Assembly (NCBI RefSeq): GCF_964355755.1 | Contig: NC_092672.1 | Location: 186,001 to 250,000, forward strand | Direction: 5' to 3' | Source of the DNA: Antedon mediterranea | Taxonomy: Eukaryota > Echinodermata > Crinoidea > Comatulida > Antedonidae | DNA length: 64,000 nt | Part shown: positions 26,455 to 55,009 of the stretch, piece after piece | Numbering within the stretch: position 1 is the stretch's first letter | Layout of the letters: each line of letters opens with the position of its first letter | Notes under the pieces: model-generated | The model's database searches: none | Told to the model about the DNA's origin: nothing | What the model saw: the letters and a program-made list of their open reading frames with translations, nothing else | Program-made: the position numbers and the translations under genes

Positions 26455-29400
26455 ATGTCAGAGACATTAAACTTCGGTCCACAGTGGCTACGGGCTTTGT
26501 CTGGTGGTGGCAGTGGTGGTACCACAACCAGTAGTGTGACGTCACCCCCACCGTCGCCAGGAATAACTCAGTTTAAACTAGCGGAGTTCCGCTATGGTCG
26601 TGAAGAGATGTTAGCTCTATTTAAGAAATCCAACCAACCTCCGTCAGGGCTAGAAGAATTCTTGTCCATTTGTCGGAAGGATAGTGCCTTGCCTATGGCT
26701 TTGACTTCATTATCTGAAGAGGAGCAGGTTTGTTATTATTACAACAGTTTTTATTATTGTTAAATTCCATTTTGGACTCTATGCAACAATTTATGAAGAA
26801 ATAATAATAAAAGCCAGAACAGCAATAAAAAAAGAAAAATAAACATGTGACTATTTGATTTACAGTGAAATAAGATTTTTTATTGCACAATTAGTGCCAC
26901 AGCACTTGATATGCAAATACTAATTTAATAAATTTAACAATAATATTAGTAAAGTGAAAATATTTATTCTGTGTAGTCTCCTTGAAACTGGATTCTTTTA
27001 AAATAATGATAATCTTAAATTCAAATTTTTTGGAAAACAACCCAGAAGGGTGTTTTATTTTTTCAAGAATGAATTCAACAACTTTGTTTTAATCATCTTT
27101 TGACAGCATGCTCTTTCACAGTGTGTGAATTCCACGTTGGTGCTACGCTTAACAGGGCGAGGAACAGGGGGTACGGGTACAAGGGGAAGAGGTGGCACGA
27201 CAAGAGGAAGGGGTAAGTTTTACAGGGAGGAACAATCGATGACTAGGAAGAAGGAAGTTAAATTTATAACATCCTGGTTATTGAGCTTACAACTACGGAA
27301 TCTTATTTCTTTGTTTTTAGGTAGAGGAAGGGGAGAGTTTATGAGGAGTAGCTATGATGAAGAGGGTGGTGGAGGAGGAGGTGGAGCATTTTCACGTAAT
27401 TTCAATAGGACTCAAAGTTGGGATGAAAGGTATGTTTTGCTGTTAATTAATTTATTGAAAACAAACCATGTTTAACTATGTTTACTGATTGTATTAATAT
27501 CAGCACATCTAATGACATTTTGTCTATTCATCTTTGCACCATTTAAAATGAAGGCATTTATTGTAAGCTGTGCAATGCTGAGAAGGAGTACAATGATGTA
27601 ACATACTGTACTTAGCTAACCCTCAGTGTGTGGAACTAACAGGAATTAGTTTGTTCTGAATTATTATGTACTAATAGGGTTAGGGTTAGGAGAAGGAGTA
27701 CAATGATGTAACATACTGTACTTAGCTAACCCTCAGTGTGTGGAACTAACAGGAATTAGTTTGTTCTGAATTATTATGTACTAATAGGGTGTATTTATTA
27801 TTACCATAATTTACTTAATATTCAAGTCTACCAATAAGGTTCTTTCGTACTTTCTCACTGTTACTGTCTGGTACTGTATGTTACTGTCTGGTACTGTATG
27901 TTACTGTATGTTATTGTCTGGTACTGTCTGTTACTGTCTGGTACTGTCTGTTACTGTATGTCTAGGCTCGCACTGGCCGATCGCCAAGTCGCCATGGGCG
28001 AAAACGTTTCTAGATTGGCGAAAAATAAAACGGCTACTTTAGCCATTTTGGCGATGACATATGATAAAATAGATAATTCAATAATCATTTTGGCGAAAGC
28101 ATAAAGTCCAACTAAAAGGTCCATTTGTCGATCTCCAAGCATTTATTTTGTTCGTTATCACGTTGTTTACTTCAAGCTCCATTTTTCGTCAACTTGTTTC
28201 GGTGTACCAGGCGTCTCTTTGTTATTTCGAAGATGGAGATAGCAGAGGTAGACTGCACAGAGAGACAGACTTTACACGACACATGGATGATGAAGTCTAC
28301 CCAAACTATCACGTGTTGTGCGCTGCACAAACGATCGACTACGTAGCCGACGGTCGGCTAATTACCGGGATTGTCTATATTTCGATAGGGGTGTACTTTT
28401 CAGATTAAAAAGAAACATTACTGTATAGTATCTTCGATGAATGACGTCTTAATCTTATCGAAATGAAAAATGTATGCGTTATGCATTTTAGAGTCTTCCA
28501 ATTTAATGTAGTTTCATATTTTACCCTTAATAAACTTCGCTCGTGCGTCAGTGTAAACAAAACAACATGTGGGAAATGGTAGAGTCTAACGGGGATTTAG
28601 CTAAACACACACGTGCATCTGAGCGGGGCCGGCCGCCGGCTTCTGTGTTGTTGTGTAAATAAATAATAATCGGGATAGATTTCTCGCCCTGACAGAAACG
28701 CTTCGGCGCAGCCTTGACGTACGTGTACTCTGTGCTTTGGCCTATATTATCTTACGTTTAACAACGATACAAGTGTTCGTTTGCTAGGAATTTTCCTCAA
28801 TATTTTTAGCATACGATAGACCGTTGCGTTGTTGTACATAATTTTGTAGGCCTAGGCCGGTGGTTCTGCACTTTCGCACCTCTTGAGCATACCCAATTTA
28901 AAAACATTAACCCGCTGCGCGGCGGTGATTCTGAGTGATTCTAGGACACGATTTTCGCCTGGTACGCCATGGAAGCCGTAATCATACAGTGATTTAGGCA
29001 TGGTTCTTTATCTCAATGCCTTACAAAAATCTTCAGGGAACAGTGTATAGACTTGTTGACATAGATAAATTGACTAAAATGTTTTTACCACTATATTTCA
29101 AAAATTTTAAATTTTGGCTATAAACCGATTCATTTGGCTAAATAAAAAAATTTGACTTTAGCCATTTTGACTATAGATAAACTGATTTGACTAAAAAAAA
29201 TATTTTGACTTTCGCCAAATGGCTAAACAAAATGAAATGTTAGTGCTACCCCAGTAGTATGTTACTGTATGTTACTGTCTGGTACTGTATGTTCTTTTGG
29301 AGTAAAATATAAAATATCTTGCAATTCTTAAGAAAAATGAGCTGATCTGATTGGTGGATGTAAATCTCTCCTGGGCATTACACAGACAGCCTGGATGAAG

Positions 29401-32400
29401 TTTGTGAGGAAGGAAGTTGAATTGACAATTATAATTGCTATTTCTCTATCCAATTCCTACTGTAAAATTGAATATTATATTCATTGATGGATATTATTAT
29501 AAAAACGCTCTTTACAGAATATTTAAATTTGTAAAGAAAACCGATTTCCAAAGTATGTATACTTAACTGACAATAAAGCAAGCTAAGATATAGTAACAGT
29601 GTTTCAACGCTAATGATAGTACAGTAGTATTCAATAAAAGAAGGTGATCTTGATTTTCTGTTCTAATTTTTTTTTTTTTTGGTCAATACAGTATTCAATT
29701 TAGCAGATTTATTTTGGGTTAATTTCAGTCGTGATTCAAGGTTTCGTAATTTTGAAGAGTCCGGTCCACCGTCGCCTAGGAAGCATTTTGATCGTAGTAT
29801 TAGTGAGAATTGGCGTTCGCGTAGTGAGAGGGGATCAACTAGAGAGAATGGGGAAGAGGATGGAGGTTGGAGACAAGCCCCCTCAAGGACATCTCGTTCA
29901 ACTCGTGATGACGACAATTGGAGGTCGGGGGGAGGTAAGACGTTTGTGATTTTAAGATTTGATTGATATATTCAGTTAAAAGAATAAAAAAGAATTTTTA
30001 AAATGTCCAGTTATTGTGATAAATGTACGGGTTTGTTTATTAGGAGGACCAAGAACAAGTTGGCGGCATCCACGAGAACGTAATGCATCGTTTAATGAGT
30101 ATGACGAAGAACAAGAACGAGACAGGGGTGAGCGCCCAGAAAGGAGGTACAGTTCACGTAATCGACGAGACAGTTTTGAGGATGCTGCGGAAGATTTGCC
30201 AGAATGGGCGATGGATGACGCATTTGAAGGGGACGCAATGATTAGTTCTTTTGATTCCTCTGGAGCCTTTTTCTCAATGAAGGCAAGTACATTATATTTA
30301 TAGAGTTATTACCATGTATGATATGGTATTAAAACTCAAGTTTGATACCAGCCCATTTGAGATTTGGTTTTTATGTCCCTTTTATTTTTATCCTATTGTG
30401 ATGAATCAATTTGAATTTATAAAGTGAAAAATCCTTGTGTAGTAACATGATTTGGAAATTGATTTTTTGCAGAAAGAGGAGAAAGATGAAAATAAAAAAG
30501 AAAATAAAAGCGAAGATGATTCCAAGTCTGATACAAAGACCACTGATAGTAATAAAGAACAAAATGCCTTGAAAGTAATTCATAAAAAAGACAAAGAAAC
30601 TAAGACTGCTAATAGTGCCAAAGTAGATAAAAACTCATCAAAAACTAGTATTTCAAATATTGATTCAACCAAAGATACCAAATCTGAAACGAAGGAAGAC
30701 GTTAGTAGAAAGACTCCTGGTGAGTTGTTGTTGGCAGAAATTACAAGTAAAAAACCTTTAACAAAAAGAATAGAAGAAGAACAACATCAAACACTAGAGA
30801 GTGTGGAAAAGGGCCTATTAGCTATAACAGAGAGTGAACCACCTGATTGCAAACAAGCGGAGGAAATGAAAGATGAGAAAGTAAAGGAAGAACAGGTGGA
30901 AGAAGAGGATCCATTAGCAAGGATAGAGAAAGAAGCAGCAGAGGACATTGTCAAGATGACTGAAGAAGTAGGATATTTTATATCAATCTTTTTATAATAA
31001 ATTTTTTCAGTTTCTTTCTCTTATATGCAGTAAAATATCCTGGATTTGTAAAACATTTAATGTTGTGAAACCCCTAAGTGCTGTACAAGACACATGGAGG
31101 AAAAAAAAAAGAAGCTAAACCTTAACCAAAGTATGAGGATACGCCCTCATTGCTTACCTCGAGTCGGTCTAAAATTAAATTCATTTTGTCTCGGTCATCT
31201 CCGACTTGCCCGCCTCCTACCCTAAAAAAAAGTATATGCAGTATTTTCATTTCATTTTAATAATTGTTTTCATTGTCATTTGGAAACAAATTGATGACTT
31301 GTCTATTTGTGTAATGATACTAATGTTGTATGTATATGTTCTAATTATTTTACTAAATATATATTGTGTTTTGTAATATTAACTAATGATTAATTATTGT
31401 GATAGGACGATGATGACAAACTGTTACGAACCCTTACTGGTAAACTTCATTATCAACAACAGCAGCAGCAGCAAGCTGCAAGCAAAGTTGCAGCTGCAAC
31501 TGCAGACATTCCTCGTATGTGGTACTACAAAGATCCTCAAGGTGCTGTACAAGGCCCATTCAGTGCTGGGGAGATGGCAGATTGGTTTGGGGCTGGCTAT
31601 TTTACTATGACACTTCTTGTTAAACGCAGCTTTGATGATGTCTTCCTTCCTTTAGGTGAATTAATTAAACAATGGGGACGAGTCCCATTTATACAGGGTC
31701 CAGAACCAATGCCAACAAAGGTAATAATATGTAAAATATATATGATACAATGGGGACGAGTCCCATTTATACAGGGCCCAGAACCAATGCCAACAAAGGT
31801 AATAATATATAAAATATATATGATACAATGGGGACGAGTCCCATTTATACAGGGTCCAGAACCAATGCCAACAAAGGTAATAATATGTAAAATATATATG
31901 ATACAATGGGGACGAGTCCCATTTATACAGGGCCCAGAACCAATGCCAACAAAGGTAATAATATGTAACATATATATGATACAATGGGGACGAGTCCCAT
32001 TTATACAGGGCCCAGAACCAATGCCAACAAAGGTAATAATATGTAACATATATATGATACAATGGGGACGAGTCCCATTTATACAGGGCCCAGAACCAAT
32101 GCCAACAAAGGTAATAATATGTAACATATATATGATACAATGGGGACGAGTCCCATTTATACAGGGCCCAGAACCAATGCCAACAAAGGTAATAATATAT
32201 AAAATATATATGATACAATGGGGACGAGTCCCATTTATACAGGGTCCAGAACCAATGCCAACAAAGGTAATAATATGTAAAATATATATGATACAATGGG
32301 GACGAGTCCCATTTATACAGGGCCCAGAACCAATGCCAACAAAGGTAATAATATGTAACATATATATGATACAATGGGGACGAGTCCCATTTATACAGGG

Positions 32401-35400
32401 CCCAGAACCAATGCCAACAAAGGTAATAATATGTAAAATATATATGATACAATGGGGACGAGTCCCATTTATACAGGGTCCAGAACCAATGCCAACAAAG
32501 GTAATAATATGTAAAATATATATGATACAATGGGGACGAGTCCCATTTATACAGGGCCCAGAACCAATGCCAACAAAGGTAATAATATGTAACATATATA
32601 TGATACAATGGGGACGAGTCCCATTTATACAGGGCCCAGAACCAATGCCAACAAAGGTAATAATATGTAAAATATATATGATACAATGGGGACGAGTCCC
32701 ATTTATACAGGGCCCAGAACCAATGCCAACAAAGGTAATAATATGTAACATATATATGATACAATGGGGACGAGTCCCATTTATACAGGGCCCAGAACCA
32801 ATGCCAACAAAGGTAATAATATGTAAAATATATATGATACAATGGGGACGAGTCCCATTTATACAGGGCCCAGAACCAATGCCAACAAAGGTAATAATAT
32901 GTAAAATATATATGATACAATGGGGACGAGTCCCATTTATACAGGGCCCAGAACCAATGCCAACAAAGGTAATAATATATAAAATATATATGATACAATG
33001 GGGACGAGTCCCATTTATACAGGGTCCAGAACCAATGCCAACAAAGGTAATAATATGTAAAATATATATGATACAATGGGGACGAGTCCCATTTATACAG
33101 GGCCCAGAACCAATGCCAACAAAGGTAATAATATGTAAAATATATATGATACAATGGGGACGAGTCCCATTTATACAGGGCCCAGAACCAATGCCAACAA
33201 AGGTAATAATATGTAAAATATATATGATACAATGGGGACGAGTCCCATTTATACAGGGCCCAGAACCAATGCCAACAAAGGTAATAATATATAAAATATA
33301 TATGATACAATGGGGACGAGTCCCATTTATACAGGGTCCAGAACCAATGCCAACAAAGGTAATAATATGTAAAATATATATGATACAATGGGGACGAGTC
33401 CCATTTATACAGGGCCCAGAACCAATGCCAACAAAGGTAATAATATGTAAAATATATATGATACAATGGGGACGAGTCCCATTTATACAGGGTCCAGAAC
33501 CAATGCCAACAAAGGTAATAATATGTAACATATATATGATACAATGGGGACGAGTCCCATTTATACAGGGCCCAGAACCAATGCCAACAAAGGTAATAAT
33601 ATGTAAAATATATATGATACAATGGGGACGAGTCCCATTTATACAGGGCCCAGAACCAATGCCAACAAAGGTAATAATATGTAACATATATATGATACAA
33701 TGGGGACGAGTCCCATTTATACAGGGCCCAGAACCAATGCCAACAAAGGTAATAATATGTAAAATATATATGATACAATGGGGACGAGTCCCATTTATAC
33801 AGGGTCCAGAACCAATGCCAACAAAGGTAATAATATGTAAAATATATATGATACAATGGGGACGAGTCCCATTTATACAGGGCCCAGAACCAATGCCAAC
33901 AAAGGTAATAATATGTAAAATATATATGATACAATGGGGACGAGTCCCATTTATACAGGGTCCAGAACCAATGCCAACAAAGGTAATAATATGTAAAATA
34001 TATATGATACAATGGGGACGAGTCCCATTTATACAGGGTCCAGAACCAATGCCAACAAAGGTAATATGTAAAATATATATGATACAATGGGGACGAGTCC
34101 CATTTATACAGGGCCCAGAACCAATGCCAACAAAGGTAATAATATGTAAAATATATATGATACAATGGGGACGAGTCCCATTTATACAGGGTCCAGAACC
34201 AATGCCAACAAAGGTAATAATATGTAAAATATATATGATACAATGGGGACGAGTCCCATTTATACAGGGTCCAGAACCAATGCCAACAAAGGTAATAATA
34301 TGTAAAATATATATGATACAATGGGGACGAGTCCCATTTATACAGGGTCCAGAACCAATGCCAACAAAGGTAATAATATGTAAAATATATATGATACAAT
34401 GGGGACGAGTCCCATTTATACAGGGCCCAGAACCAATGCCAACAAAGGTAATAATATGTAAAATATATATGATACAATGGGGACGAGTCCCATTTATACA
34501 GGGCCCAGAACCAATGCCAACAAAGGTAATAATATGTAACATATATATGATACAATGGGGACGAGTCCCATTTATACAGGGTCCAGAACCAATGCCAACA
34601 AAGGTAATAATATGTAAAATATATATGATACAATGGGGACGAGTCCCATTTATACAGGGTCCAGAACCAATGCCAACAAAGGTAATAATATGTAAAATAT
34701 ATATGATACAATGGGGACGAGTCCCATTTATACAGGGCCCAGAACCAATGCCAACAAAGGTAATAATATGTAAAATATATATGATACAATGGGGACGAGT
34801 CCCATTTATACAGGGTCCAGAACCAATGCCAACAAAGGTAATAATATGTAAAATATATATGATACAATGGGGACGAGTCCCATTTATACAGGGTCCAGAA
34901 CCAATGCCAACAAAGGTAATAATATGTAAAATATATATGATACAATGGGGACGAGTCCCATTTATACAGGGTCCAGAACCAATGCCAACAAAGGTAATAA
35001 TATGTAAAATATATATGATACAATGGGGACGAGTCCCATTTATACAGGGTCCAGAACCAATGCCAACAAAGGTAATAATATGTAAAATATATATGATACA
35101 ATGGGGACGAGTCCCATTTATACAGGGCCCAGAACCAATGCCAACAAAGGTAATAATATGTAAAATATATATGATACAATGGGGACGAGTCCCATTTATA
35201 CAGGGCCCAGAACCAATGCCAACAAAGGTAATAATATGTAAAATATATATGATACAATGGGGACGAGTCCCATTTATACAGGGTCCAGAACCAATGCCAA
35301 CAAAGGTAATAATATGTAAAATATATATGATACAATGGGGACGAGTCCCATTTATACAGGGTCCAGAACCAATGCCAACAAAGGTAATAATATGTAAAAT

Positions 35401-38400
35401 ATATATGATACAATGGGGACGAGTCCCATTTATACAGGGCCCAGAACCAATGCCAACAAAGGTAATAATATGTAAAATATATATGATACAATGGGGACGA
35501 GTCCCATTTATACAGGGCCCAGAACCAATGCCAACAAAGGTAATAATATGTAAAATATATATGATACAATGGGGACGAGTCCCATTTATACAGGGCCCAG
35601 AACCAATGCCAACAAAGGTAATAATATGTAAAATATATATGATACAATGGGGACGAGTCCCATTTATACAGGGTCCAGAACCAATGCCAACAAAGGTAAT
35701 AATATGTAAAATATATATGATACAATGGGGACGAGTCCCATTTATACAGGGTCCAGAACCAATGCCAACAAAGGTAATAATATGTAAAATATATATGATA
35801 CAATGGGGACGAGTCCCATTTATACAGGGTCCAGAACCAATGCCAACAAAGGTAATAATATGTAAAATATATATGATACAATGGGGACGAGTCCCATTTA
35901 TACAGGGCCCAGAACCAATGCCAACAAAGGTAATAATATGTAAAATATATATGATACAATGGGGACGAGTCCCATTTATACAGGGTCCAGAACCAATGCC
36001 AACAAAGGTAATAATATGTAAAATATATATGATACAATGGGGACGAGTCCCATTTATACAGGGCCCAGAACCAATGCCAACAAAGGTAATAATATGTAAA
36101 ATATATATGATACAATGGGGACGAGTCCCATTTATACAGGGTCCAGAACCAATGCCAACAAAGGTAATAATATGTAAAATATATATGATACAATGGGGAC
36201 GAGTCCCATTTATACAGGGCCCAGAACCAATGCCAACAAAGGTAATAATATGTAAAATATATATGATACAATGGGGACGAGTCCCATTTATACAGGGTCC
36301 AGAACCAATGCCAACAAAGGTAATAATATGTAAAATATATATGATACAATGGGGACGAGTCCCATTTATACAGGGTCCAGAACCAATGCCAACAAAGGTA
36401 ATAATATGTAAAATATATATGATACAATGGGGACGAGTCCCATTTATACAGGGCCCAGAACCAATGCCAACAAAGGTAATAATATGTAAAATATATATGA
36501 TACAATGGGGACGAGTCCCATTTATACAGGGCCCAGAACCAATGCCAACAAAGGTAATAATATGTAAAATATATATGATACAATGGGGACGAGTCCCATT
36601 TATACAGGGCCCAGAACCAATGCCAACAAAGGTAATAATATGTAAAATATATATGATACAATGGGGACGAGTCCCATTTATACAGGGTCCAGAACCAATG
36701 CCAACAAAGGTAATAATATGTAAAATATATATGATACAATGGGGACGAGTCCCATTTATACAGGGTCCAGAACCAATGCCAACAAAGGTAATAATATGTA
36801 AAATATATATGATACAATGGGGACGAGTCCCATTTATACAGGGTCCAGAACCAATGCCAACAAAGGTAATAATATGTAAAATATATATGATACAATGGGG
36901 ACGAGTCCCATTTATACAGGGCCCAGAACCAATGCCAACAAAGGTAATAATATGTAAAATATATATGATACAATGGGGACGAGTCCCATTTATACAGGGT
37001 CCAGAACCAATGCCAACAAAGGTAATAATATGTAAAATATATATGATACAATGGGGACGAGTCCCATTTATACAGGGCCCAGAACCAATGCCAACAAAGG
37101 TAATAATATGTAAAATATATATGATACAATGGGGACGAGTCCCATTTATACAGGGTCCAGAACCAATGCCAACAAAGGTAATAATATGTAAAATATATAT
37201 GATACAATGGGGACGAGTCCCATTTATACAGGGTCCAGAACCAATGCCAACAAAGGTAATAATATGTAAAATATATATGATACAATGGGGACGAGTCCCA
37301 TTTATACAGGGCCCAGAACCAATGCCAACAAAGGTAATAATATGTAAAATATATATGATACAATGGGGACGAGTCCCATTTATACAGGGCCCAGAACCAA
37401 TGCCAACAAAGGTAATAATATGTAAAATATATATGATACAATGGGGACGAGTCCCATTTATACAGGGTCCAGAACCAATGCCAACAAAGGTAATAATATG
37501 TAAAATATATATGATACAATGGGGACGAGTCCCATTTATACAGGGTCCAGAACCAATGCCAACAAAGGTAATAATATGTAAAATATATATGATACAATGG
37601 GGACGAGTCCCATTTATACAGGGTCCAGAACCAATGCCAACAAAGGTAATAATATGTAAAATATATATGATACAATGGGGACGAGTCCCATTTATACAGG
37701 GTCCAGAACCAATGCCAACAAAGGTAATAATATGTAAAATATATATGATACAATGGGGACGAGTCCCATTTATACAGGGCCCAGAACCAATGCCAACAAA
37801 GGTAATAATATGTAAAATATATATGATACAATGGGGACGAGTCCCATTTATACAGGGTCCAGAACCAATGCCAACAAAGGTAATAATATGTAAAATATAT
37901 ATGATACAATGGGGACGAGTCCCATTTATACAGGGCCCAGAACCAATGCCAACAAAGGTAATAATATGTAAAATATATATGATACAATGGGGACGAGTCC
38001 CATTTATACAGGGTCCAGAACCAATGCCAACAAAGGTAATAATATGTAAAATATATATGATACAATGGGGACGAGTCCCATTTATACAGGGTCCAGAACC
38101 AATGCCAACAAAGGTAATAATATGTAAAATATATATGATACAATGGGGACGAGTCCCATTTATACAGGGCCCAGAACCAATGCCAACAAAGGTAATAATA
38201 TGTAAAATATATATGATACAATGGGGACGAGTCCCATTTATACAGGGTCCAGAACCAATGCCAACAAAGGTAATAATATGTAAAATATATATGATACAAT
38301 GGGGACGAGTCCCATTTATACAGGGCCCAGAACCAATGCCAACAAAGGTAATAATATGTAAAATATATATGATACAATGGGGACGAGTCCCATTTATACA

Positions 38401-41400
38401 GGGTCCAGAACCAATGCCAACAAAGGTAATAATATGTAAAATATATATGATACAATGGGGACGAGTCCCATTTATACAGGGTCCAGAACCAATGCCAACA
38501 AAGGTAATAATATGTAAAATATATATGATACAATGGGGACGAGTCCCATTTATACAGGGCCCAGAACCAATGCCAACAAAGGTAATAATATGTAAAATAT
38601 ATATGATACAATGGGGACGAGTCCCATTTATACAGGGTCCAGAACCAATGCCAACAAAGGTAATAATATGTAAAATATATATGATACAATGGGGACGAGT
38701 CCCATTTATACAGGGTCCAGAACCAATGCCAACAAAGGTAATAATATGTAAAATATATATGATACAATGGGGACGAGTCCCATTTATACAGGGCCCAGAA
38801 CCAATGCCAACAAAGGTAATAATATGTAAAATATATATGATGATCAGTTATATTATACTATTAAGCAGTTTTCAGAAAGTATATATTTTGATGTTTGAAT
38901 TCAATGTCATCATTTCAGGTTCCGGCTAGTCCACAAGTAAAGATGCCTTCTAGAAAAGAACTAACTCCTGAACAACAACTCGTACTACAACAACAATTGC
39001 TGCAACAACAGATGATGCAGCTCATGGCTCATCAGCAACAACAAATTCTAATGAGGTCAGTCTTTAGATCATTAATTAGTCTAAGGTCATTGGTTAGTCT
39101 AGGTTTATCATATGTTTTCAGACCATTTGCTGTGTACCATTGCACTTATAGAATACGTAGATATAAAATACAATTAAATTTGTTCATTTACTTTTTGTGT
39201 CACAGATCTTTTCAAATTCAACAACAGTTTGCACAGAAGGGTCAAATCCTGACCCCACAACAACAACAATTTCTCTTGCAACAACTGCTGTCTAAGATGC
39301 GGCAACATCAATATGTACTTCAGAAACAACAACAAGCACAGCAACACCCTGGCCAACAACCTCCTCCCCAATTACAGCGTCAAATCAGTGGAGCTGGTAG
39401 AGACCGCGCACTAACGCCTGAAGAATTAGCAAAAGGTATGAAGAAAGGTGATGAAGATGGTCCTATTATATCTGTATGGGGAAGTAGCCCCGGTGAAGAA
39501 GTCAAGAAAAGAAGAGAAGGTAAGTGATTTCAGTAAAAGTTTTTAGTAAAAAAAAAGTGTTTAATCCTATAAAGCAATCAATGAAAAAACCAAACTGAAT
39601 TACTAATCCACTTGTTTTAGGTAGAATTGAATTTGGTTCAATTTTGTCAATTCTAGGTCCAAGTGACAGCCAGGCTTGATTTCTGTTATCATAGACAGAC
39701 AGGTTTGAACATTTGTTAGTTAGGTACAGATCTGGAGAAAAACTTGACATAATGCATAATTTACATGTCGTTGCCAATCGAAAGTTAAGTTTTAAATATT
39801 TCTAGTATAACAATGAAAATATAAGTTTACAAAAATAATGCTGTATGTTTAAGATTATGAAATTGGTGTTTGGCAACCAGAGGGTGGAGCTTGTCAAGTC
39901 GGACGTCCTGGTTTTGGTAATGATAACTGGGAGGTTGGTGTATGGGATCCATCGGTTGGAGATCCAAACTTTGCTCTTAAGAAACAGATGATGAATGCAG
40001 CAGAAGGCTGGGATATTGGAGTCTGGGATCCGTCCAAACCACAGGAAAAAATATTAACTGAAGAAGTAAGAGAAATCTACAGTTTAGTATTTACAGAATG
40101 CTTTGCACATTGCAGCCCAATGCAGTGATAAATGACATGGACTGTAATGGACCAGAACACTGGTGTAACCTATACTCTTTCCAAAAGATAAATGACATGG
40201 ACTGTAATGGACCAGAACACTGGTGTAACCTATACTCTTTCCAAAAGATAAATGACATGGACTGTAATGGACCAGAACACTGGTGTAACCTATACTCTTT
40301 CCAAAAGATAAATGACATGGACTGTAATGGACCAGAACACTGGTGTAACCTATACTCTTTCCAAAAGATAAATGACATGGACTGTAATGGACCAGAACAC
40401 TGGTGTAACCTATACTCTTTCCAAAAGATGTACTGGGTTCTTTAAAGTGAACACAAATTAGATGTTGAAAAAGTCCTTGTTCTACCACCAGAACAAAATG
40501 TGCCTTGGACCTATGCCAATATTATGGCTGTGTTTTACAGTGCTCCTTTTTTGGTGTTTTTTAGGCTTTTAATGAAAGAATAAGAAAACTTTACTTTGAA
40601 ACTCAAGCTGCAGAAAGAATGCAAGCCTTAGCTAGGCAACAGGGTGATATCAAGTAAGTAATCAACAGTCGCATGCCTCTAGCATGTTGTTTTCGCACTT
40701 ATTTTGTAAGCCTTTGATTCGTGATAGATTTACATAAATTGTATGTGTTGGAGTATGTATTCTTTTTTATTCAACTAATGTGCTTACTGTTGCTTTAAAA
40801 GATTAAAAGAAGAACTTAAACGAAAAGAGGAGGAACTTAAAAAGCAACAAGAAGAACTGCAAAGAAGAGAGGATGAAATAAGGAGACAGGAGGAACAGAG
40901 AATTGAAGAAATGAGAAGACGTGAGGATGAAGAAAAAAGGCGGATAGAACAAAGACAACAACAAATTGTAAGTATTGTGTATTTCATGTAACATCACCAC
41001 TAAATACAAATCAGCTTTCCCGCATAATTAATTTACTATACTGCTATTTAATTTGACTTTTATTTGATCATTTAATATACAGAGACAAGAAGAATTATTA
41101 CGACAAAAAGAAGAAGCGAATCGACGAGTTGCTGAAGAAGAAAGAAAAAGGAAAGAACAAGAGATGTTGAGGCAACAGGAGAAAGATATGCAACAAAATG
41201 AGATGAAAAAGTAAGAGCAAAAAAGTTACTTAATTTGATCTCAATAGTTACTAGTTATAAGGAATTATTGTATTGGTTACTAAGATCTACTCTTTGACAT
41301 TCACAGGAATGAAATGATGAATCAAGAATTATTGCAAAGGCAACAAGAGCAAGTACTGAGGAGGTTGCAGCAGCAGCAGCAACGACAGCAGCAACAGCAG

Positions 41401-44400
41401 CAACAACAACAGCAGCAGCAGCAACAACAGTCAGATCCAGTGAAAGTAAGCAGACTCGTACTTTAAACCCATTACAGAATTATTATCCATATATACACAC
41501 AAGAAGCATAGTTTATAATAAATTAGCATAACAATTCTGGGTTTTTACAATATTGATGTAATTGAAATGTACTAGTGGTGAAACATGTGATTATTTTGTA
41601 CACAGTTACCATCTACTGCTATGTGGGGCCAAGTGACCACCAGTGTACCAACAACTAGCAATAACAGTAGTTCACAAACAAGCCCAAGCTTATCTCAAAT
41701 ACAGAACCTACAGGCACAGCAGGAGGAGCGTGATAGACATGAGGTATACTTTTTCTTTTCTTATTTTTAATAATTTAATTCAGAATTCTAATGTAGTTTC
41801 AATAGATATTTGTATTAATTAAGTATTAACTAATCTTGTTTTTTTTTTATATAGAAACAACGACGAATGCAAGCTCAGTTACAAGAACAGCAGCAGCAGA
41901 ACAGAGCAGGAGGATGGGCTGCTAAAGTGTCAAGGTAAATATTACAATGCGAGATTCGAAGTTGCTGTAGAAAGAGCATTTTCTATGTTGGGCTGCTGAG
42001 TCGAAGCTGCTTAATATGTAGAAAGAGCATTTTCTATGTTGGGCTGCTGAGTCGAAGCTGCTTAATATGTAGAAAGAGCATTTTCTATGTTGGGCTGCTG
42101 AGTCGAAGCTGCTTAATATGTAGAAAGAGCATTTTCTATGTGGGGCTGCTGAGTCGAAGCTGCTTAATATGTAGAAAGAGCATTTTCTATGTTGGGCTGC
42201 TGAGTCGAAGCTGCTTAATATGTAGAAAGAGCATTTTCTATGTGGGGCTGCTGAGTCGAAGCTGCTTAATATGTAGAAAGAGCATTTTCTATGTGGGGCT
42301 GCTGAGTCGAAGCTGCTTAATATGTAGAAAGAGCCTTTTCTATGTGGGGCTGCTGAGTCGAAGCTGCTTAATATGTAGAAAGAGCATTTTCTATGTGGGG
42401 CTGCTGAGTCGAAGCTGCTTAATATGTAGAAAGAGCATTTTCTATGTGGGGCTGCTGAGTCGAAGCTGCTTAATATGTAGAAAGAGCATTTTCTATGTGG
42501 GGCTGCTGAGTCGAAGCTGCTTAATATGTAGAAAGAGCATTTTCTATGTTGGGCTGCTGAGTCGAAGCTGCTTAATATGTAGAAAGAGCATTTTCTATGT
42601 TGGGCTGCTGAGTCGAAGCTGCTTAATATGTAGAAAGAGCATTTTCTATGTGGGGCTGCTGAGTCGAAGCTGCTTAATATGTAGAAAGAGCATTTTCTAT
42701 GTTGGGCTGCTGAGTCGAAGCTGCTTAATATGTAGAAAGAGCATTTTCTATGTGGGGCTGCTGAGTCGAAGCTGCTTAATATGTAGAAAGAGCATTTTCT
42801 ATGTGGGGCTGCTGAGTCGAAGCTGCTTAATATGTAGAAAGAGCCTTTTCTATGTGGGGCTGCTGAGTCGAAGCTGCTTAATATGTAGAAAGAGCATTTT
42901 CTATGTGGGGCTGCTGAGTCGAAGCTGCTTAATATGTAGAAAGAGCATTTTCTATGTTGGGCTGCTGAGTCGAAGCTGCTTAATATGTAGAAAGAGCATT
43001 TTCTATGTTGGGCTGCTGAGTCGAAGCTGCTTAATATGTAGAAAGAGCATTTTCTATGTTGGGCTGCTGAGTCGAAGCTGCTTAATATGTAGAAAGAGCA
43101 TTTTCTATGTGGGGCTGCTGAGTCGAAGCTGCTTAATATGTAGAAAGAGCATTTTCTATGTGGGGCTGCTGAGTCGAAGCTGCTTAATATGTAGAAAGAG
43201 CATTTTCTATGTGGGGCTGCTGAGTCGAAGCTGCTTAATATGTAGAAAGAGCATTTTCTATGTTGGGCTGCTGAGTCGAAGCTGCTTAATATGTAGAAAG
43301 AGCATTTTCTATGTGGGGCTGCTGAGTCGAAGCTGCTTAATATGTAGAAAGAGCCTTTTCTATGTGGGGCTGCTGAGTCGAAGCTGCTTAATATGTAGAA
43401 AGAGCCTTTTCTATGTGGGGCTGCTGAGTCGAAGCTGCTTAATATGTAGAAAGAGCATTTTCTATGTGGGGCTGCTGAGTCAAAGCTGCTTAATATGTAG
43501 AAAGAGCATTTTCTATGTTGGGCTGCTGAGTCGAAGCTGCTTAATATGTAGAAAGAGCATTTTCTATGTTGGGCTGCTGAGTCGAAGCTGCTTAATATGT
43601 AGAAAGAGCATTTTCTATGTTGGGCTGCTGAGTCGAAGCTGCTTAATATGTAGAAAGAGCATTTTCTATGTTGGGCTGCTGAGTCGAAGCTGCTTAATAT
43701 GTAGAAAGAGCATTTTCTATGTTGGGCTACTGAAGTGTCAATAGAACCATTACTACAATTAATAGAATACTTCATTATCCGTTTTTCCTCATATTTGATT
43801 TAAATCAAACAGTAATGTGAATGGCAAAGGAAGTACAAAATCTTTACGTGAGATTCAAGAGGAACAGTCAAGACAGCAGAAGCACAAGACTACTGACCCT
43901 TCTCAATCAAAATCACAACCAGTGAGTATGATACACTAATACAATCAAACATAGTATACTCTATACTTCTCTAACAAAACATTTCAATCTTCCAACCATT
44001 GATTTGGAACAGCATTTTTAGGTTGTTTGTGCTTAGGCAAATTGTCCTATCATGGTCATACCACTTACAGTGTGGCAAGAAACATATCCAATTCTTTCCA
44101 TTCTTGCACAGAGTCTGCCATTGACATCAGCAGCAGTGTGGAGAGGCAATACACAAAACACATTGAGTTGGGGGTCTGGGTCTAGTGATCATACACTACT
44201 AACATGTGATGTTTAACCTTTAAACTCTTTCCATTCTTACACAGAGTCTGCCATTGACATCAGCAGCTGTATGGAGAGGCAATACACAAAACACATTGAG
44301 TTGGGGGTCTGGGTCTAGTGATCATACACTACTAACATGTGATGTTTAACCTTTAAACTCTTTCCATTCTTACACAGAGTCTGCCATTGACATCAGCAGC

Positions 44401-47400
44401 TGTATGGAGAGGCAATACACAAAACACATTGAGTTGGGGGTCTGGGTCTAGTGATCATACACTACTAACATGTGATGTTTAACCTTTAAACTCTTTCCAT
44501 TCTTACACAGAGTCTGCCATTGACATCAGCAGCAGTGTGGAGAGGCAATACACAAAACACATTGAGTTGGGGGTCTGGGTCTAGTGATCATACACTACTA
44601 ACATGTGATGTTTAACCTTTAAACTCTTTCCATTCTTGCACAGAGTCTGCCATTGACATCAGCAGCTGTGTGGAGAGGCAATACACAAAACACATTGAGT
44701 TGGGAATCTGGGTCTAGTGATCATACACTACTAACATGTGATGTTTAACATTTAAACTCTTTCCATTCTTACACAGAGTCTGCCATTGACATCAGCAGCT
44801 GTATGGAGAGGCAATACACAAAACACATTGAGTTGGGGGTCTGGGTCTAGTGATCATACACTACTAACATGTGATGTTTAACATTTAAACTCTTTCCATT
44901 CTTACACAGAGTCTGCCATTGACATCAGCAGCTGTATGGAGAGGCAATACACAAAACACATTGAGTTGGGGGTCTGGGTCTAGTGATCATACCCCTACTA
45001 ACATGTGATGTTTAACCTTTAAACTCTTTCCATTCTTACACAGAGTCTGCCATTGACATCAGCAGCAGTGTGGAGAGGCAATACACAAAACACATTGAGT
45101 TGGGGGTCTGGGTCTAGTGATAACAGCAATAATGTATGGGGATCATCATCTAATAGCAGCAATTCAGGAGGCTTCTGGGATGAATGTGCACGAGAGAGCC
45201 CTGTCATTCAAAAGCCTAAAGCAAGGTAACTATATTTATTCACAATACACAATATCTACAATAGAAATAGCATAGCTCAACTGGAGATTAATAAAATGAT
45301 TACAAAAGCCTATAGCAAGGTAAATGTATGTATTCACAATACCTGTATACAATATATCTTAGCTAGAAATAATAGCATAGCAGTCATACTAGAAGGTGGT
45401 TTGCATCTGATCTTTAACTTGCTTCTACCTTTGTAGTGACAGTCATTTTCCAACATTAAGGGCAACTGCACCAAATCCAAATGTAGCACAGCAGCAACAG
45501 CAACACACACAATCTAACTCAAAATCAAGGACGGCCAAGGAAGAGGTAATACCATTATTCTACATTTCAATGATAAAATGATGATGATGCTAATATTAAT
45601 AACCTGCATATATTGAGCTGCAGCGGTGGCGCCAGGATCTTTCCGACGTGGGGGGCTAAATTCCCCGACGGGGGCTGGGGAAAGGGGGCCCTCTGTGGGG
45701 GTCCAGAGGGCGAGGCCACCAGAAGCAACGCGTTATAGCGTAATTTGATGCCGTTTTAATCAGATTTAGGGTAGGCCTATAGCCAACTTTTTCCATTTTG
45801 TATGGTACATAAATAAAATATATGAATAGTATCATAAAACATACGCGAACGTAAAACCTACCCACGGGCCAAGAGGTATATCGTTTTAATCGCAGAGGCG
45901 TAGGCAGGTTGCTGTCTGGGGGTGCGAAAATTGTAAATGCGCGAGACTAACACCCATGGGCTAATCTGTAAGAACATTTTGAAAAAATAGAGCCTGCTAG
46001 GTCCCCGGAAATTGCAATTATACATTGATATAAAATGAAATTACAAGTCTATCTGAGAACCAGCCCACCGAGGTTGGGATGGAGCAGTTAAACAAAATAG
46101 AGTTGTTAGGTCCCCGGATATTGGATTATAGTATTTCGAAAAAAAGAAAAAAAATATATAAGTCTCCAGGACCAGTACTACCATTAGGGTTGAGCTGCTC
46201 AGAAAATTATGAAAAATAGACCTGCTAGGTACCTGGAAATTGCACTTATATAGGCCCTTATTGATAAATGAAACAAAATTATAAGTCTATACAGAACCAG
46301 CCCGCCATGGATGGTTGGGTGGAGCTAAGAAAATTGTCAAAAATAGAGCAGCTAGGTCCCTGCAAAACATTGAAATATGAAACGAAATTATAGGTCCAGC
46401 CCACCATGGTTGAGGTGTAAGAACATTTTGAAAAATAGAGTTGCTAGGTCTCGGAAATTTAACTTATTATACTTCGAAGCATAAAACAAAATATATACCG
46501 GTACGTCTCCAGAACCAGCCCTACCATGGATATAAAATAAAAATAAAATAAAATTGAAAAAATAGAGTTCTAGGTTCCCAGACAATGCACTGACTATATT
46601 GTACATCGAAATATGAAACGAAATGTATAAGTATCCATGACCAGCTCTATAATTGGGGACGGTTGAGCTAAGACAATTTTGAAACTAGAGCTTCAGGTCT
46701 TCAAAAATTACACTTATACTTTAAAAAAATTTAGGCCTAGAGGCCTAAAAAAGTGACCCTTTTTACCTTTTATTTGGAGGGGAATGCGTCCGCAAGCGTA
46801 GACCATTTTCCGTCTGGGAAATCAGTTTATTTCCCAGATGTGAATCTGGAACTTCGATGTACGATAAGCAGTTCATGACGTACAGGACATTGGAATAACT
46901 TAGCTTTAATAAGATGTTGGCTAAACGAAAATGGCATGTTTTTTGTTTAGTAATGTAGGCGAGCCTACAGTGAAACGTCTATTTTAGGTACCCCACAGTA
47001 CAGAGGGTTAATCGTAAATTAAAAAATTGAACATACGAACAATAAAATAGATCGCGAACATAATTCGTACCCTTTTCTGTATACATAGTACACAACGTAA
47101 CGCGTCTGTAAACTTCCCCTGGAAAGTAACTACAGTACACATTCTGGTCCGTGGATGGAACATGATATCACGCGTAAACCGCAATGGGCCGGGGCCCAAT
47201 GTTAAACGATTCGTACAAAGGGACACCGCCAGACATTAGATTAGATTGCTGGCAATAATGCATGCATATAAAGTGCAATAGCCCTCAGACGTACTTAATG
47301 GAACGTTGCGGTTTTCTAGAAGCTGAAGCTACGAAGTGAACACGAATGATTTTTACTGTATATTATATTCACTGACGAAAAGTACTGGCGTTCCCCGACG

Positions 47401-48735
47401 GGGGAGGCTAGGCTCCCCGACGAGGGTGCTACAGCCCCCCACCCCCCGCTGGCGCCACCACTGTTGAGCTGTATATTATTATTATAGTAATATTATTATT
47501 ATTATACTTATTTATGGATACTATTTTGTTTGTTCTTACAGGAGAATGTGAAGAGGCTTTTCCAAAGTAATATTGTCAGTGATGAGTTCACTGCATGGTG
47601 TGAGATGAGTTTACGTGGCATGTCTGCTTCTGTTGATAGTAAGTCACTTCTTCACTCTTTAATTTCTTATTTCAGTTTTACCAGTGATGCTTGTTTTTGG
47701 AATTCTGTCCCTCGACAAATTACTAAATCAACATCTATTGCTATTTTTAAAAAGAACTTAAAATGCATCTTTTTAACATCTAATACAAGCATATAAAGTT
47801 TGATAGTGTAGACTGAGCGTTAAATTGATAACTTTTGAATACTTGTTTTTTATTTTAGTACCAACTTTCATAACATTCTTGCAAGATGTAGACTCTCCAT
47901 ATGAGCTTCATGACTATGTTAAAATGTATCTTGGTGAATCTCGTGAAACAGCAGAGTTTGCCCGTCAGTTCTTAGAACGCCGTCAGAAAATGAGACAAAT
48001 GGTAAGTCCACGTCCATGTTAAAATGTATCTTGGTGAATCTCGTGAAACAGCAGAGTTCGCCTGTCAGTTCTTAGAACGCCGTCACAAAATGAGACAAAT
48101 GGTAAGTCCACGTCTATGTTAAAATTTATCTTGGTGAATCTCGTGAAACAGCAGAGTTTGCCCGTCAGTTCTTAGAACGCCGTCAGAAAATGAGACAAAT
48201 GGTAAGTCCACGTCTATGTTAAAATTTATCTTGGTGAATCTCGTGAAACAGCAGAGTTTGCCCGTCAGTTCTTAGAACGCCGTCAGAAAATGAGACAAAT
48301 GGTAAGTCCACGTCTATGTTAAAATTTATCTTGGTGAATCTCGTGAAACAGCAGAGTTCGCCCGTCAGTTCTTAGAACGCCGTCAGAAAATGAGACAAAT
48401 GGTAAGTCCACGTCCAAGTCTGTTTTTACTATGATGTGGGAAAATGAGAAAACGTTTTGTTGTGCATTTTTTACCAAATTTTTGTTCAGATTTCCATATA
48501 AGGATATATTTATAAATTAAGAATTTACTTTTTTATTTAGGAAAATCCTTGGATGGTTCAAGGAAAGTCTTCTCAGATTACTTCTTATGGAGACTGGGAA
48601 TCGGATTCGATGAGAAAGTCTGTCGGAGGAAAGAAAAAGAAACGTTTCCAGACTTTAGACCCTAGCATCCTGGGCTTCAGCGTAAATCCTGCTGATAGGA
48701 TAAACATGGGTGAAATCCAAACCGTTGACGATTGA
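26455..48735 (+). CDS. GIGYF: GIGYF: GYF-domain translational repressor (22 coding exons, 1326 codons)
   Basis: Exons: 26455-26727, 27107-27212, 27321-27429, 29729-29934, 30044-30282, 30473-30967, 31406-31720, 38919-39055, 39206-39519, 39854-40065, 40565-40653, 40802-40967, 41083-41210, 41307-41445, 41606-41743, 41855-41934, 43813-43921, 45044-45225, 45437-45545, 47542-47638, 47859-48001, 48541-48735 (3981 nt with stop). Domains: 4EHP-binding motif FRYGREEML (45-53), RGG-rich and acidic region with LPEWAMDD, GYF domain (about 514-575), Q-rich region, long charged coiled coil, Trp-rich GVWDP repeats, and the typical C-terminus ending in NMGEIQTVDD. Length is near vertebrate GIGYF2 (about 1300). 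Family role: with 4EHP it silences mRNAs, including during ribosome quality control; the GYF domain binds proline-rich ligands. One intron is GC-AG (30283). Several junctions carry tandem arrays. The protein given assumes the first donor after the GYF exon. Confidence 0.93.
26587..26613 (+). other. 4EHP (eIF4E2)-binding motif of GIGYF
   Basis: Codons 45-53 read FRYGREEML, followed by ALF. The family motif is Y-x-Y-x4-(L/M)-hydrophobic. The second Tyr (residue 47) and Met-Leu (52-53) are kept, while the first Tyr is Phe. It supports an eIF4E2-type partner; the assignment rests on recall of the family. Confidence 0.75.
27581..27790. repeat. 110-bp tandem duplication in GIGYF intron 3
   Basis: Two almost identical units start AGAAGGAGTACAATG at 27581 and 27691. 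The first ends in GGGTTAGGGTTAGG. It is purely intronic. Confidence 0.92.
27850..27961. repeat. Minisatellite of TTACTGT(A/C)TG units
   Basis: 10-bp units alternating TTACTGTATG, TTACTGTCTG and GTACTGT(A/C)TG. The same array resumes at 29255-29290, so it was split by the element at 27962-29254. Confidence 0.85.
27962..29254. mobile_element. hAT-like element inserted in a minisatellite (GIGYF intron 3)
   Basis: Left end CTAGGCTCGCACTGGC and the reverse complement of the right end (CTGGGGTAGCACTAAC) match at most positions. Flanking octamers CTGTATGT and TAGTATGT match at six of eight. Both ends contain GGCGAAA and TTTAGCCATTTTG blocks. The minisatellite continues on each side. The frame 28148-28408 is not recognised. 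Assignment to hAT is by end structure only. Confidence 0.55.
30283..30472 (+). other. GC-AG intron of GIGYF
   Basis: The exon ends ATGAAG at 30282 and the intron begins GCAAGT, ending TTTTTTGCAG at 30472. Phase 0 on both sides and the continuing acidic reading frame support it. No GT donor nearby keeps the frame. GC donors with otherwise perfect U1 complementarity are the known minor class. Confidence 0.8.
31406..31720 (+). other. GYF-domain exon of GIGYF
   Basis: 105 codons: an acidic start (DDDDK), seven Gln, then the GYF domain from codon 514. The signature is present: WYYKDPQGAVQGPF, later EMADWFGAGYF. These aromatic and glycine residues form the pocket for proline-rich peptides in the family. 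The last 51 nt of the exon and its donor (AAG/GTAATA at 31720/31721) form the first unit of the 92-copy array downstream. Confidence 0.92.
31670..38842 (+). repeat. 92-copy, 78-bp array of GYF-exon 3' end plus splice donor
   Basis: Each unit has 51 nt of exon (from CAATGGGGACGAGTCCC to ACAAAG) and 27 nt of intron (GTAATAATATGTAAAAT...). Donors run from 31721 to 38816. One unit, near 34062, is 75 bp. Both sizes are multiples of three and the unit has no stop in the GIGYF frame, so the frame is open from the GYF domain to 38929. Variants: GGTCC or GGCCC in the exon part; TGTAAA, TGTAAC or TATAAA in the intron part. No acceptor-like sequence lies between units. Frames on the other strand are open only because the unit is open. 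Confidence 0.97.
40131..40430. repeat. 60-bp tandem repeat, 5 copies, intronic
   Basis: Five identical 60-bp units starting AATGACATGGACTGTAATGG, in the intron after the exon ending 40065. The array does not touch a splice junction. Open frames across it follow from the unit length. Confidence 0.97.
41939..43740 (+). repeat. 51-bp array, 34 copies, just after a GIGYF donor
   Basis: Exact 51-bp periodicity from 41990 to 43724 (34 units, starting GGGCTGCTGAGTCGAAGC). The unit resembles the exon end itself (GGGCTGCTAAAGTGTCAAG) fused to the first intron bases, but has lost the GTAAAT donor. A last partial unit reads GGGCTACTGAAGTGTCAATAG, closer to the exon. Only the true donor at 41934/41935 keeps a consensus. 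Variation is mainly GTTGG/GTGGG and CATTT/CCTTT. Confidence 0.95.
44092..45121 (+). repeat. 133-bp array, 8 copies of branch point, acceptor and exon start
   Basis: Acceptor AGs end at 44111, 44244, 44377, 44510, 44643, 44776, 44909 and 45043 (the last step is 134 because of one extra C). Each complete interval between acceptors includes the branch-point consensus TACTAAC, a pyrimidine-rich stretch, TTCTTACACAG or TTCTTGCACAG, and the first 78 nt of the exon. The seven upstream copies read into TAA or TGA soon after the exon part. Only the eighth continues into the rest of the exon (45044-45225). Confidence 0.95.
45226..45345 (+). repeat. Decayed two-copy duplication of an exon end and donor
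   Basis: The exon end AAAAGCCTAAAGCAAG/GTAACT at 45225 is echoed by AAAAGCCTATAGCAAG/GTAAAT ending at about 45319, followed in both by TATTCACAATAC and a similar run to AATAGCATAGC. It is an older, diverged version of the junction-spanning duplications. Confidence 0.8.
45621..47463. mobile_element. Non-autonomous hAT-type element, copy 2 (1843 bp), in GIGYF intron 19
   Basis: Ends CAGCGGTGGCGCCAG and CTGGCGCCACCACTG; the 8-bp target duplication TTGAGCTG lies at 45613-45620 and 47464-47471. Inside are about seven diverged units of roughly 100-125 bp, each with AAAATAGAG...CTAGGTC, compared with three in copy 1, which explains much of the length difference. No transposase frame. Confidence 0.92.
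47660..47796 (+). mobile_element. LINE 3' ORF fragment in GIGYF intron 20
   Basis: The open stretch encodes FWNSVPRQITKSTS followed by AIFKKNLKCIFL, which resembles the C-terminal end of LINE reverse transcriptase ORFs. It lies between the donor at 47638 and the acceptor at 47858. It is short, so the evidence is limited. Confidence 0.5.
47795..47823 (-). mobile_element. Solo terminal repeat of the CTCTGTCTACACTATC MITE family
   Basis: ATAAAGTTTGATAGTGTAGA and the following bases match the right end of the MITE at 56875-57037, with one substitution. Only this end is present. Confidence 0.6.
47916..48415 (+). repeat. 100-bp array, 5 copies of exon 3' end plus donor (GIGYF exon 21)
   Basis: Donors ATG/GTAAGT have their last exon base at 48001, 48101, 48201, 48301 and 48401, an exact 100-bp period. 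The unit holds 86 nt of exon and 14 nt of intron. Because 100 is not a multiple of three, use of a later donor reads GTAAGTCCACG... into TAA within a few codons. The first donor gives the frame that joins 48541. Confidence 0.97.
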
Positions 48736-52224: not shown

Positions 52225-54280
52225 CTATAATAATAATAATTTATTAGGAAATGACACCTTTGCATCGGTGGCACACACAGAAGTGGTGCATCCAATTTAA
52301 CATAATACATCAAAACAATACATTATATGACGGATACAGGTTCTTAAACTGTTTGCAAAAATATAAAAGAAAAATCAATACCAACATGGTAATATAGGTA
52401 CTGTATTAAATTGTCCTACGGTATCATAGGTTTGAGTTGATAAAGAGGTATATAAAAATAAACATAAAATATAGTAAAGAGTTTACATTACAAACCATTG
52501 TGTTTCAACATCAGGTACCGAAGACCTATAGTTGTTATCACAGGTGTATACTATTTACAAATCTAAATACAAATATATAAAAGCAACAATACAAAAGAAA
52601 AACAATCTATATATTGGGAGATTTAAGTTCTGACCGTTTCTCCCATGCAGCTCTTGTGTATTGTTTACAAAACAAATCAAAAAAGGTCTCAGATTCTTTA
52701 CAAATCGCGATAGAATCTCCACCTAAAATATACTGTAATTTATCATCAGCAGTTGCTGTTGTGTAACGATTCCATGTGTCATAATCATTACAGAGTACAA
52801 GATTATTTTGTAGATTGGATAATTCTTTCATTCTAATATTATCAAATGCTTTACAGTTTAATAAAAAATGTTTAATGTCTTCGATTTCGCCATTCCCACA
52901 TAAAGTACAAAGACCGGACACATCATTGGACCATTTATAAGTTTTACAATCTAAAGGTAGAGTGTTAGATCTTAATTTAAATTTCAGACTTGTCTCATAA
53001 AAATGTGTTTTATCAAGTAAATATTTTTCTAAATTAGGGAAAGGTTTCAATTTTGAGTATAAATTTAATGAGGTTTTTTGCATTATATTATTTGACCACT
53101 CTGATTTATATGATTCTGACAAACATCGCTCGACATTGCTAACTGAGAAAGGAACAAGAGTTAAACTATCATTATCAAAAACATTGTTGTAAAAGCCTAT
53201 ATCTGTACATTTTTCAAATATGTCAACACAACTACTAAGAAATTTATATTTTAAACGATCAAAATCACATTTCAATTGTAGCATAGAATTAAGTACAATA
53301 TTAGGCCACCTGTGGTCATCCATAGTTATAAAACGATTAAATAATTTAACTCTGGACAGTTTGTGTAACTTGGATAATGGAACCCACCCAAGGTCACCAT
53401 AGAGTGCCTCTTTTGGAGTATACCGTGGAGCTTTGAGAAGAAAGCGGGCCATTTGCAATTGCACTTTCTCTAGGTCTTCGTTATCCTTCTTGGATTTATT
53501 ATACCAAATGCTACAAGCATAATTTATTGAAGGAATTGCAATGGTTTTCCACAGTATGTTTCCATAGTACACCCGGTTAAAGTCATCAAGGTTAGCTATG
53601 ATACCTTTGATATAAGCTATAAGCCGGTTGCCCTTTTGGATAACATGTTCATAATGTGAATGTTCACTCATGTTTGAGGAAATATAGACCCCTAAATATT
53701 TATAACTATTTACTTCTTTTATCGATTTTTCACCTAATTTCCACTCTTTATCTTTATTTATGCGTTTTCCAACAACCATGACATTTGATTTTTCATGATT
53801 AAAACCAAGTTTCCATTCTTTGGCGAATATATTGGCAATTTCTAACATTTCAGTCATTTCCCTTTCATTATTAGCAATCAATATAACATCATCAGCCCAG
53901 AAGAGCCCTCCCATCCAGACACCATTCATTCTTACCCCGAAGTTGCTTTCACGAAGAAGTTTAACAAATTCATTAATAAATATAGAAAATAAAATTGGTG
54001 AGAGTACACACCCTTGTTTTACTCCTTTGTGGATATTAAACTCATTAGTCATGCTTTCCCCCACTTTTACTTTTGCTTTAACATTGTCATATAGTGAGCT
54101 TATTATTTTCCAAATTTTCCCTCTAACTCCCGTATCCCAGGCACATTTTAGGAGACCATCACGCCATACACTATCAAATGCTTTTCGGAAGTCCAGGAAA
54201 GCTAGATGTGTAGTTTTACCTTCAATACTGTAGGTGGCGCCAGTTATAAGCTTGTTCCTGGCTTGTTGTTGTTGATCGAT
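52225..54280 (-). mobile_element. 5'-truncated LINE with intact reverse transcriptase frame
   Basis: On the minus strand an uninterrupted frame from about 54277 to 52607 encodes a reverse transcriptase: AFLDFRKAFDSVWR, QGCVLSPILFSIFINE, and the catalytic motif FWADDVIL, where the usual first Tyr or Phe of (Y/F)ADD is Trp. The C-terminus has CTLCGNGE...HFLLNC, the zinc-knuckle-like end seen in LINE reverse transcriptases. The upstream endonuclease is absent. The 3' end has AATAAA and a TTATTATTATTA tail. The open frame suggests a recent insertion. Clade unresolved (Jockey/CR1-like). Confidence 0.85.
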
Positions 54281-55009
54281 CGAGAAAAGGGGAATCCCCA
54301 ACCAATGTGCTATTTTCACACACACTAACCTAAGTTGGAAAATCCGTTTGTTAAAAATTAAAACACTTAAAAACGTCAAGAAGCATATCTAAAGAGAAAA
54401 AATGATTAATCTGTCTGAAATTTAGGTAATTAGACAATTTATTGAATATCGTCTGAACTTTAAAAAGTGAGTACAGAGTGTTTTTATTTTATTTAGAATT
54501 TTAGGCTACACTCTCTCTATCTAGCTTCTAACCTAGTAGCTAGATAAAGAGGCCAGGCCGACGTGCCGGATGGTTTAACAATAAACAACAGCAGAAGCTA
54601 CTAACTATAATAAAAAGGCTCCTGGGGCCTAGTCCCTGGTAATATAAGTAGTAAGCCTTTGGTTTATCCTAAGCCGATAACTACTTTACTGGGCTTATTA
54701 GAAATGCTAAAAAGTAAACAACCAGCTTAGATTTAATTGTTTGTAGTTTAGGGGTGATCTAATCTAGATTTTAGACAATATGATGAGAATTACATTCATT
54801 AATTATTTATTAGGCCTAGGTCAAAAAAAGAATTGACTTGGTATAGGTTAACAATATTGGAAGTGCATGAAGTAAATGTTTATTATTCAATTTCTTGATT
54901 GAAAAATAAGTAGTATAAGTATACTATTTAAATATTTTATGCAGTTATTATTATTTTTATACTTTTTAACAACAATATTAAATAGTTTACTTGATAGACA
55001 CACCGCAAG
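54281..55009 (+). other. 5' flank of MIB-like C
   Basis: No repeat family or exon is recognised. The promoter of MIB-like C should be here. No CRE/CCAAT cluster like the one between A and B was seen. Confidence 0.35.

Follow-up and report, generated by a model that had tools for sequence, protein, structure and literature searches.

Results

The window, that is, the whole 64,000-nt stretch of Antedon mediterranea DNA that was analysed (C3:186001-250000, in an assembly of 354 Mb in 18 contigs), contains a GIGYF gene and a MIB-like gene, both interrupted by tandem arrays (Table 1). The contig opens with CCCTAA repeats, which places the largest of these arrays, at the GYF exon, about 218 kb from the telomere. 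A GYF family search returned two genome matches, one in GIGYF and the other in a separate gene that we take to be CD2BP2-like, and GIGYF appears to be single-copy in this genome. The GYF exon aligns with the human GIGYF1 and GIGYF2 GYF constructs (7ruq, 7rup) through WGRVPFxxGP, reaching residues inside the first unit of the array; the first unit is therefore genuine exon. For the last exon of the gene, presumably the conserved GIGYF C-terminal part, Pfam gave just a sub-threshold hit to another family. Elsewhere in the window, at 27580-27790, a 110-bp unit is repeated 1.9 times without mismatch and contains the telomere-like motif GGGTTAGGGTTAG.

In the GYF array, 91 units measure 78 bp and a single unit measures 75 bp. 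Every unit comprises the last 52 nt of the GYF exon, the donor, and 26 nt of intron (23 nt in the 75-bp unit). The initial annotation had arrived at the same unit count and lengths, while its bounds (31670-38842) are corrected here to 31669-38841 and its exonic share of 51 nt was measured as 52 nt. The donor, AAAG/GTAATA (slash at the splice point), is intact in 92 of 92 units. With tandem units in the range of roughly 10-100 bp and high identity (78 bp x 92, 98%), the array has the form of a minisatellite, and exon, splice site, and intron follow one another in native order within the unit, as in a tandem duplication that spans an exon-intron boundary. Chance does not account for 7 kb of repeats at 98% identity. 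When a two-unit query was run against the genome, all 41 matches listed, a lower bound on their number, fell inside the array, which gives no indication of an introner, meaning related intron copies in many genes. An RNA fold analysis gave z = -2.71.

Table 1. Features of the window and the two dynein ladders elsewhere in the genome. Bit scores come from a splice-site model trained on sites chosen partly by consensus and are biased in that direction.
Feature	Location	Strand	Observation
GIGYF exon with GYF domain; final 52 nt form the exonic part of unit 1	31406-31720	+	Pfam GYF E 2e-19; human GIGYF1/2 GYF constructs match; acceptor 6.3 bits
Donor ladder at the GYF exon, 92 head-to-tail units	31669-38841	+	TRF: 92.0 copies, 98% matches, score 13912
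First donor GT, putatively the one used	31721-31722	+	Exon end at 31720; donor score 8.7 bits (median 8.6)
Next GIGYF exon, phase 0	38919-39054	+	Open joint with each of 92 donors; acceptor 7.6 bits
Intronic array without donors, 60 bp x 5.1	40127-40429
Intronic array without donors, 51 bp x 34.7	41966-43733		Starts a few dozen nt past a donor
Acceptor ladder, GIGYF by position, 133 bp x 7.7, with 8 acceptors whose exons would begin at 44112 to 45044	44093-45121	+	Last acceptor alone gives an open frame
Second donor ladder of GIGYF (by position), 100 bp x 5: 88 nt exon end + GTAAGT + intron	47914-48414	+	Donor 1 alone of 5 keeps the frame
MIB-like gene, two-copy duplication of acceptor + exon start	58030-58295	+	Only the second copy continues into the exon (by eye)
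MIB-like gene donor ladder, 103 bp x 5.4: 94 nt ankyrin exon end + GTAAGT + intron	62612-63163	+	Donor 1 alone of 5 keeps the frame; ankyrin hits flank the joint
DNAH1 donor ladder, 61 bp x 19	C2:40837154-40838320 (L037:2154-3320)		Frame kept by donor 1 of 19 only
DNAH3 donor ladder, 68 bp, about 82 copies by length	C1:19363243-19368751	-	Frame kept by donor 1 of 56 examined only

Four sites vary along the GYF ladder. One is exonic and synonymous (GGT/GGC), and the other three are intronic, two of them substitutions and one a 3-bp deletion; together the four yield six unit types arranged in an irregular series. Types C, D, and E, which carry the intronic substitutions, account for 13 of the first 46 units and for none of the last 46, so that the 3' half looks younger. 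Although the array is known from one assembly, this irregular series argues against an artefact in which the copy number is wrong or the array false, as do the similar ladders on two other chromosomes; we regard an assembly error as highly unlikely, the count of 92 being that of the assembly.

The + frame is open from 31406 to 38929, across the GYF ladder, and joint-by-joint translation confirmed the earlier claim that every one of the 92 donors, when joined to the exon at 38919, gives an open frame. Use of the last donor would insert 7095 nt (38815-31720), or 2365 codons, and would leave an intron of 103 nt (38816-38918); under intron definition, so compact an intron could in principle be preferred, with the entire array included. 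These properties, together with the synonymous nature of the sole exonic variant, would suit a ladder in which several donors are used, giving GIGYF proteins with anywhere from 0 to 91 copies of a 26-residue block behind the GYF domain. The 92 in-frame donors would then be a real choice, with block number differing by tissue or individual and array length serving as a heritable dial on the GIGYF protein. Both the variable protein and the dial seem very unlikely to us, however, since human GIGYF1/2 share the end of the domain that the block would directly follow, the sister ladders described below are incapable of such use, and an open frame may arise by chance. At 43 of 111 paralogue-supported dynein donors, the frame remains open over the next 26 nt of intron, and multiplication by 1/3 for a period divisible by three gives a chance of about 13% that a unit with 26 nt of intron is both open and a multiple of three. 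Summed over the five donor ladders, the chance values predict about 0.86 in-frame open ladders, and one was seen.

The suggestion in the initial annotation that the protein may contain 0 to 91 blocks thus loses ground to its own caveat that the open frame may be passive, which we judge the better reading given the chance estimate and the frame breaks past donor 1 in four sister ladders. As part of the first-donor explanation developed below, the open frame across the GYF array is in all likelihood the chance result of one open 78-bp unit, and an open frame across a junction-spanning array is no evidence of coding. The GYF and DNAH3 ladders each have only a synonymous exonic variable site, which does not decide the matter of selection; in the GYF ladder this is what protein selection would give, but one exonic site of four is too few to be decisive.

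Each unit could in principle also be spliced as a 24-nt exon (GPEPMPTK), as an AG within TTTATACAG precedes this in-frame piece in every unit. With 1.95 bits, however, that acceptor ranks at the 2nd percentile of the 117 training acceptors of the consensus-biased model, and a repeated microexon is extremely improbable. With regard to intron gain from duplicated splice signals, the native donor and acceptor suffice for the GYF joint, and the same internal acceptor is the weak one offered by the unit.

Four further donor ladders were found in the genome, at a later GIGYF exon, in the MIB-like gene, in DNAH1, and in DNAH3. Their periods (100, 103, 61, and 68 bp) are not multiples of three and break the frame, so that those genes depend on the first donor. 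In each of these four ladders it alone keeps the frame (in DNAH3, among the 56 donors examined), and only the last of eight acceptors does so in the acceptor ladder; the viable site in these five cases is thus the one adjoining the exon body. Later copies carry amino-acid changes in the 100-bp ladder (Y>H, R>C, Q>H, M>I), the MIB-like ladder (P>L, R>K), and the DNAH1 ladder (T>S, R>Q, R>T), and these copies are not constrained to a protein sequence. The intronic share of the unit, determined by alignment to the flanks, is short in all five donor ladders (26, 12, 9, 12, and about 17 nt), which may reflect a real bias or a bias in recognition.

Within the window, five arrays of at least five copies occupy one short stretch of the GIGYF gene. 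The MIB-like gene was named from an exon matching MIB1 (4xi6, E 1.5e-9), with Pfam MIB_HERC2 below the cut-off, and its ankyrin exons (Pfam) were assigned to the same gene by position. Opposite this gene, on the - strand, reverse transcriptase domains (Pfam RVT_1) are encoded by open frames at 52607-54388, 59153-60202, and 60275-61324, which are probably of LINE type.

The DNAH1 ladder was found in one of 12 stretches with dynein heavy chain genes, picked from 91 exon matches, and the DNAH3 ladder through a donor-pair scan; the gene identities DNAH1 and DNAH3 come from PDB matches. The DNAH3 ladder was assembled from four stretches (L040, L039, L043, L044), with about 22 of its roughly 82 copies known solely from hits of that scan. 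Past the first donor, the frame is broken at 18 of 18 donors in DNAH1 and at 55 of 55 examined in DNAH3. The exons flanking the DNAH1 ladder end at human residue 1009 and start at 1010 (8j07_g6), and those flanking the DNAH3 ladder end at 2899 and start at 2900 (8j07_g3), with nothing inserted in either case; first-donor splicing thus yields the conserved protein without insertion. Inspection by eye of the 91 dynein exon matches revealed no tandem repeats of whole exons, partial repeats being below the reach of the search. Contig C2 ends about 84 kb from the DNAH1 ladder, and its last 300 bases are without telomere repeat; the DNAH3 ladder occupies an interior position on its contig.

Sampling was targeted and covered the window, 13 random 8-kb stretches, four neighbouring 10-kb stretches, the 12 dynein stretches, and two pattern scans. 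No ladder was recognised in the 13 random stretches, which are unannotated, so that some may have been missed. Pairs of AGGTAAGT 50-80 nt apart numbered 156+396 (552) against 1730+189 (1919) for the backward motif, and the first places listed comprise eight distinct ones, all on C1. One of these is the DNAH3 ladder, and two others (L041, L042) had no coding sequence in their flanks by eye. The CAGGTAAGT pair scan gave 37+48 (85) pairs, at 19 places, against 8+22 (30) for the backward motif. The two scans thus give no clear excess of donor pairs. Since single large arrays dominate the scan counts, we claim recurrence of donor ladders and make no claim of enrichment. Of the 19 CAGGTAAGT-pair places, five are no more than 1 Mb from a large contig's end, against a genome share of about 6% for such terminal regions, a count taken without a control.

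Five other arrays were read by eye (L021:5692, L024:7261, L024:8943, and two in the joined L038/L036 stretch). No coding sequence was seen at L021:5692 and L024:7261; one of the two in L038/L036 adjoins a coding stretch. At L024:8943-9074 (- strand), a 63-bp in-frame duplication lies inside an exon that we take to belong to a subtilisin-type protease. A 69-bp array at C11:839562-839846 has units in which an acceptor-like tract, TTTGTTTCACAG, is joined directly to a donor (GTAAGT), with no exon between them.

Discussion

The GYF ladder is most probably a minisatellite born across a splice junction and hidden from the mRNA by use of the donor on the exon side, an explanation in which we place high confidence. 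The ladder would have been founded when a segment that took in both the 3' end of the GYF exon and the beginning of the next intron was duplicated in tandem, and would later have expanded to 92 copies by minisatellite growth. In the pre-mRNA, the upstream acceptor would pair with the first donor transcribed, at the exon end at 31720, and the remaining 91 donors would fall in one long intron, spliced out by joining to 38919. The mRNA and protein would stay normal despite the ladder, and with its copies hidden from the mRNA the array would be free to grow, presumably neutrally.

Older duplicated-site assays showed a preference opposite to this proposal, for the intron-proximal donor. Designed human reporters with two donors 2-77 nt apart, both of them consensus, predominantly used the first, which lends independent support to first-donor use, and no such rule was found for tandem acceptors (PMC6783452). 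The same paper states that its result resolves conflicting evidence.

The 91 spare donors might instead bind U1, for instance to shield the long intron from early polyadenylation, while the first alone is spliced. Their scores are those of average real donors (8.7 bits on the consensus-biased scale) and all 92 are intact, yet intact donors also follow from the high identity of the array, and the donor-less arrays in neighbouring introns (40127-40429, 41966-43733) indicate that donors are not required for growth. Such a U1 platform is very unlikely.

The sister repeats in three other genes suggest that the first donor alone is used and the others are removed, which would make the GYF ladder a natural experiment on the choice among identical splice sites rather than a protein-length switch. 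If the first donor is indeed used, the ladders constitute natural splice-site competition experiments beyond the scale of two-donor reporters, with up to 92 near-identical donors in one gene and, in DNAH1 and DNAH3, the first donor alone keeping the frame. The ladders would then measure in vivo the strictness of the first come, first served rule and of exon definition. First-donor use would likewise mean that minisatellite growth over a conserved gene's splice junction can leave the protein unaltered.

It had been stated earlier that no described gene has such a layout. Limited literature searches, with most subscription papers out of reach, are in keeping with this, as they listed no account of a live donor repeated dozens of times, but the layout recurs within the same genome and is not peculiar to one gene. 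The closest relatives are minisatellites (VNTRs), which the GYF ladder resembles in unit length, high identity, tandem growth, and nearness to a chromosome end, but its unit contains the live splice junction of a conserved gene; we class the junction-spanning donor ladder as a minisatellite of a new variety.

Three other systems share features with the ladders. In the potato RdRp gene, a tandem duplication spans an intron-exon boundary, so that in this protein gene, as here, a splice junction lies within the duplicated segment (PMC4974935); there, a single duplication over an acceptor made a new intron, whereas the GYF ladder repeats a donor 92 times and shows no sign of intron gain. Two fission yeast genes have introns made of tandem repeat units (PMC3629103), which likewise carry splice-site-like motifs beside similar exon sequence, but those units are exonic, with AGGC proto-sites and few copies, whereas the unit described here, present in dozens of copies, includes a genuine exon end together with its genuine donor. 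Tandem alternative donors (PMC6783452; TASS catalogue, PMC8055015) resemble the ladders as donors competing on a first come, first served basis; the known cases involve few sites at short spacing, whereas the ladders present 5 to 92 near-identical donors 61-103 nt apart.
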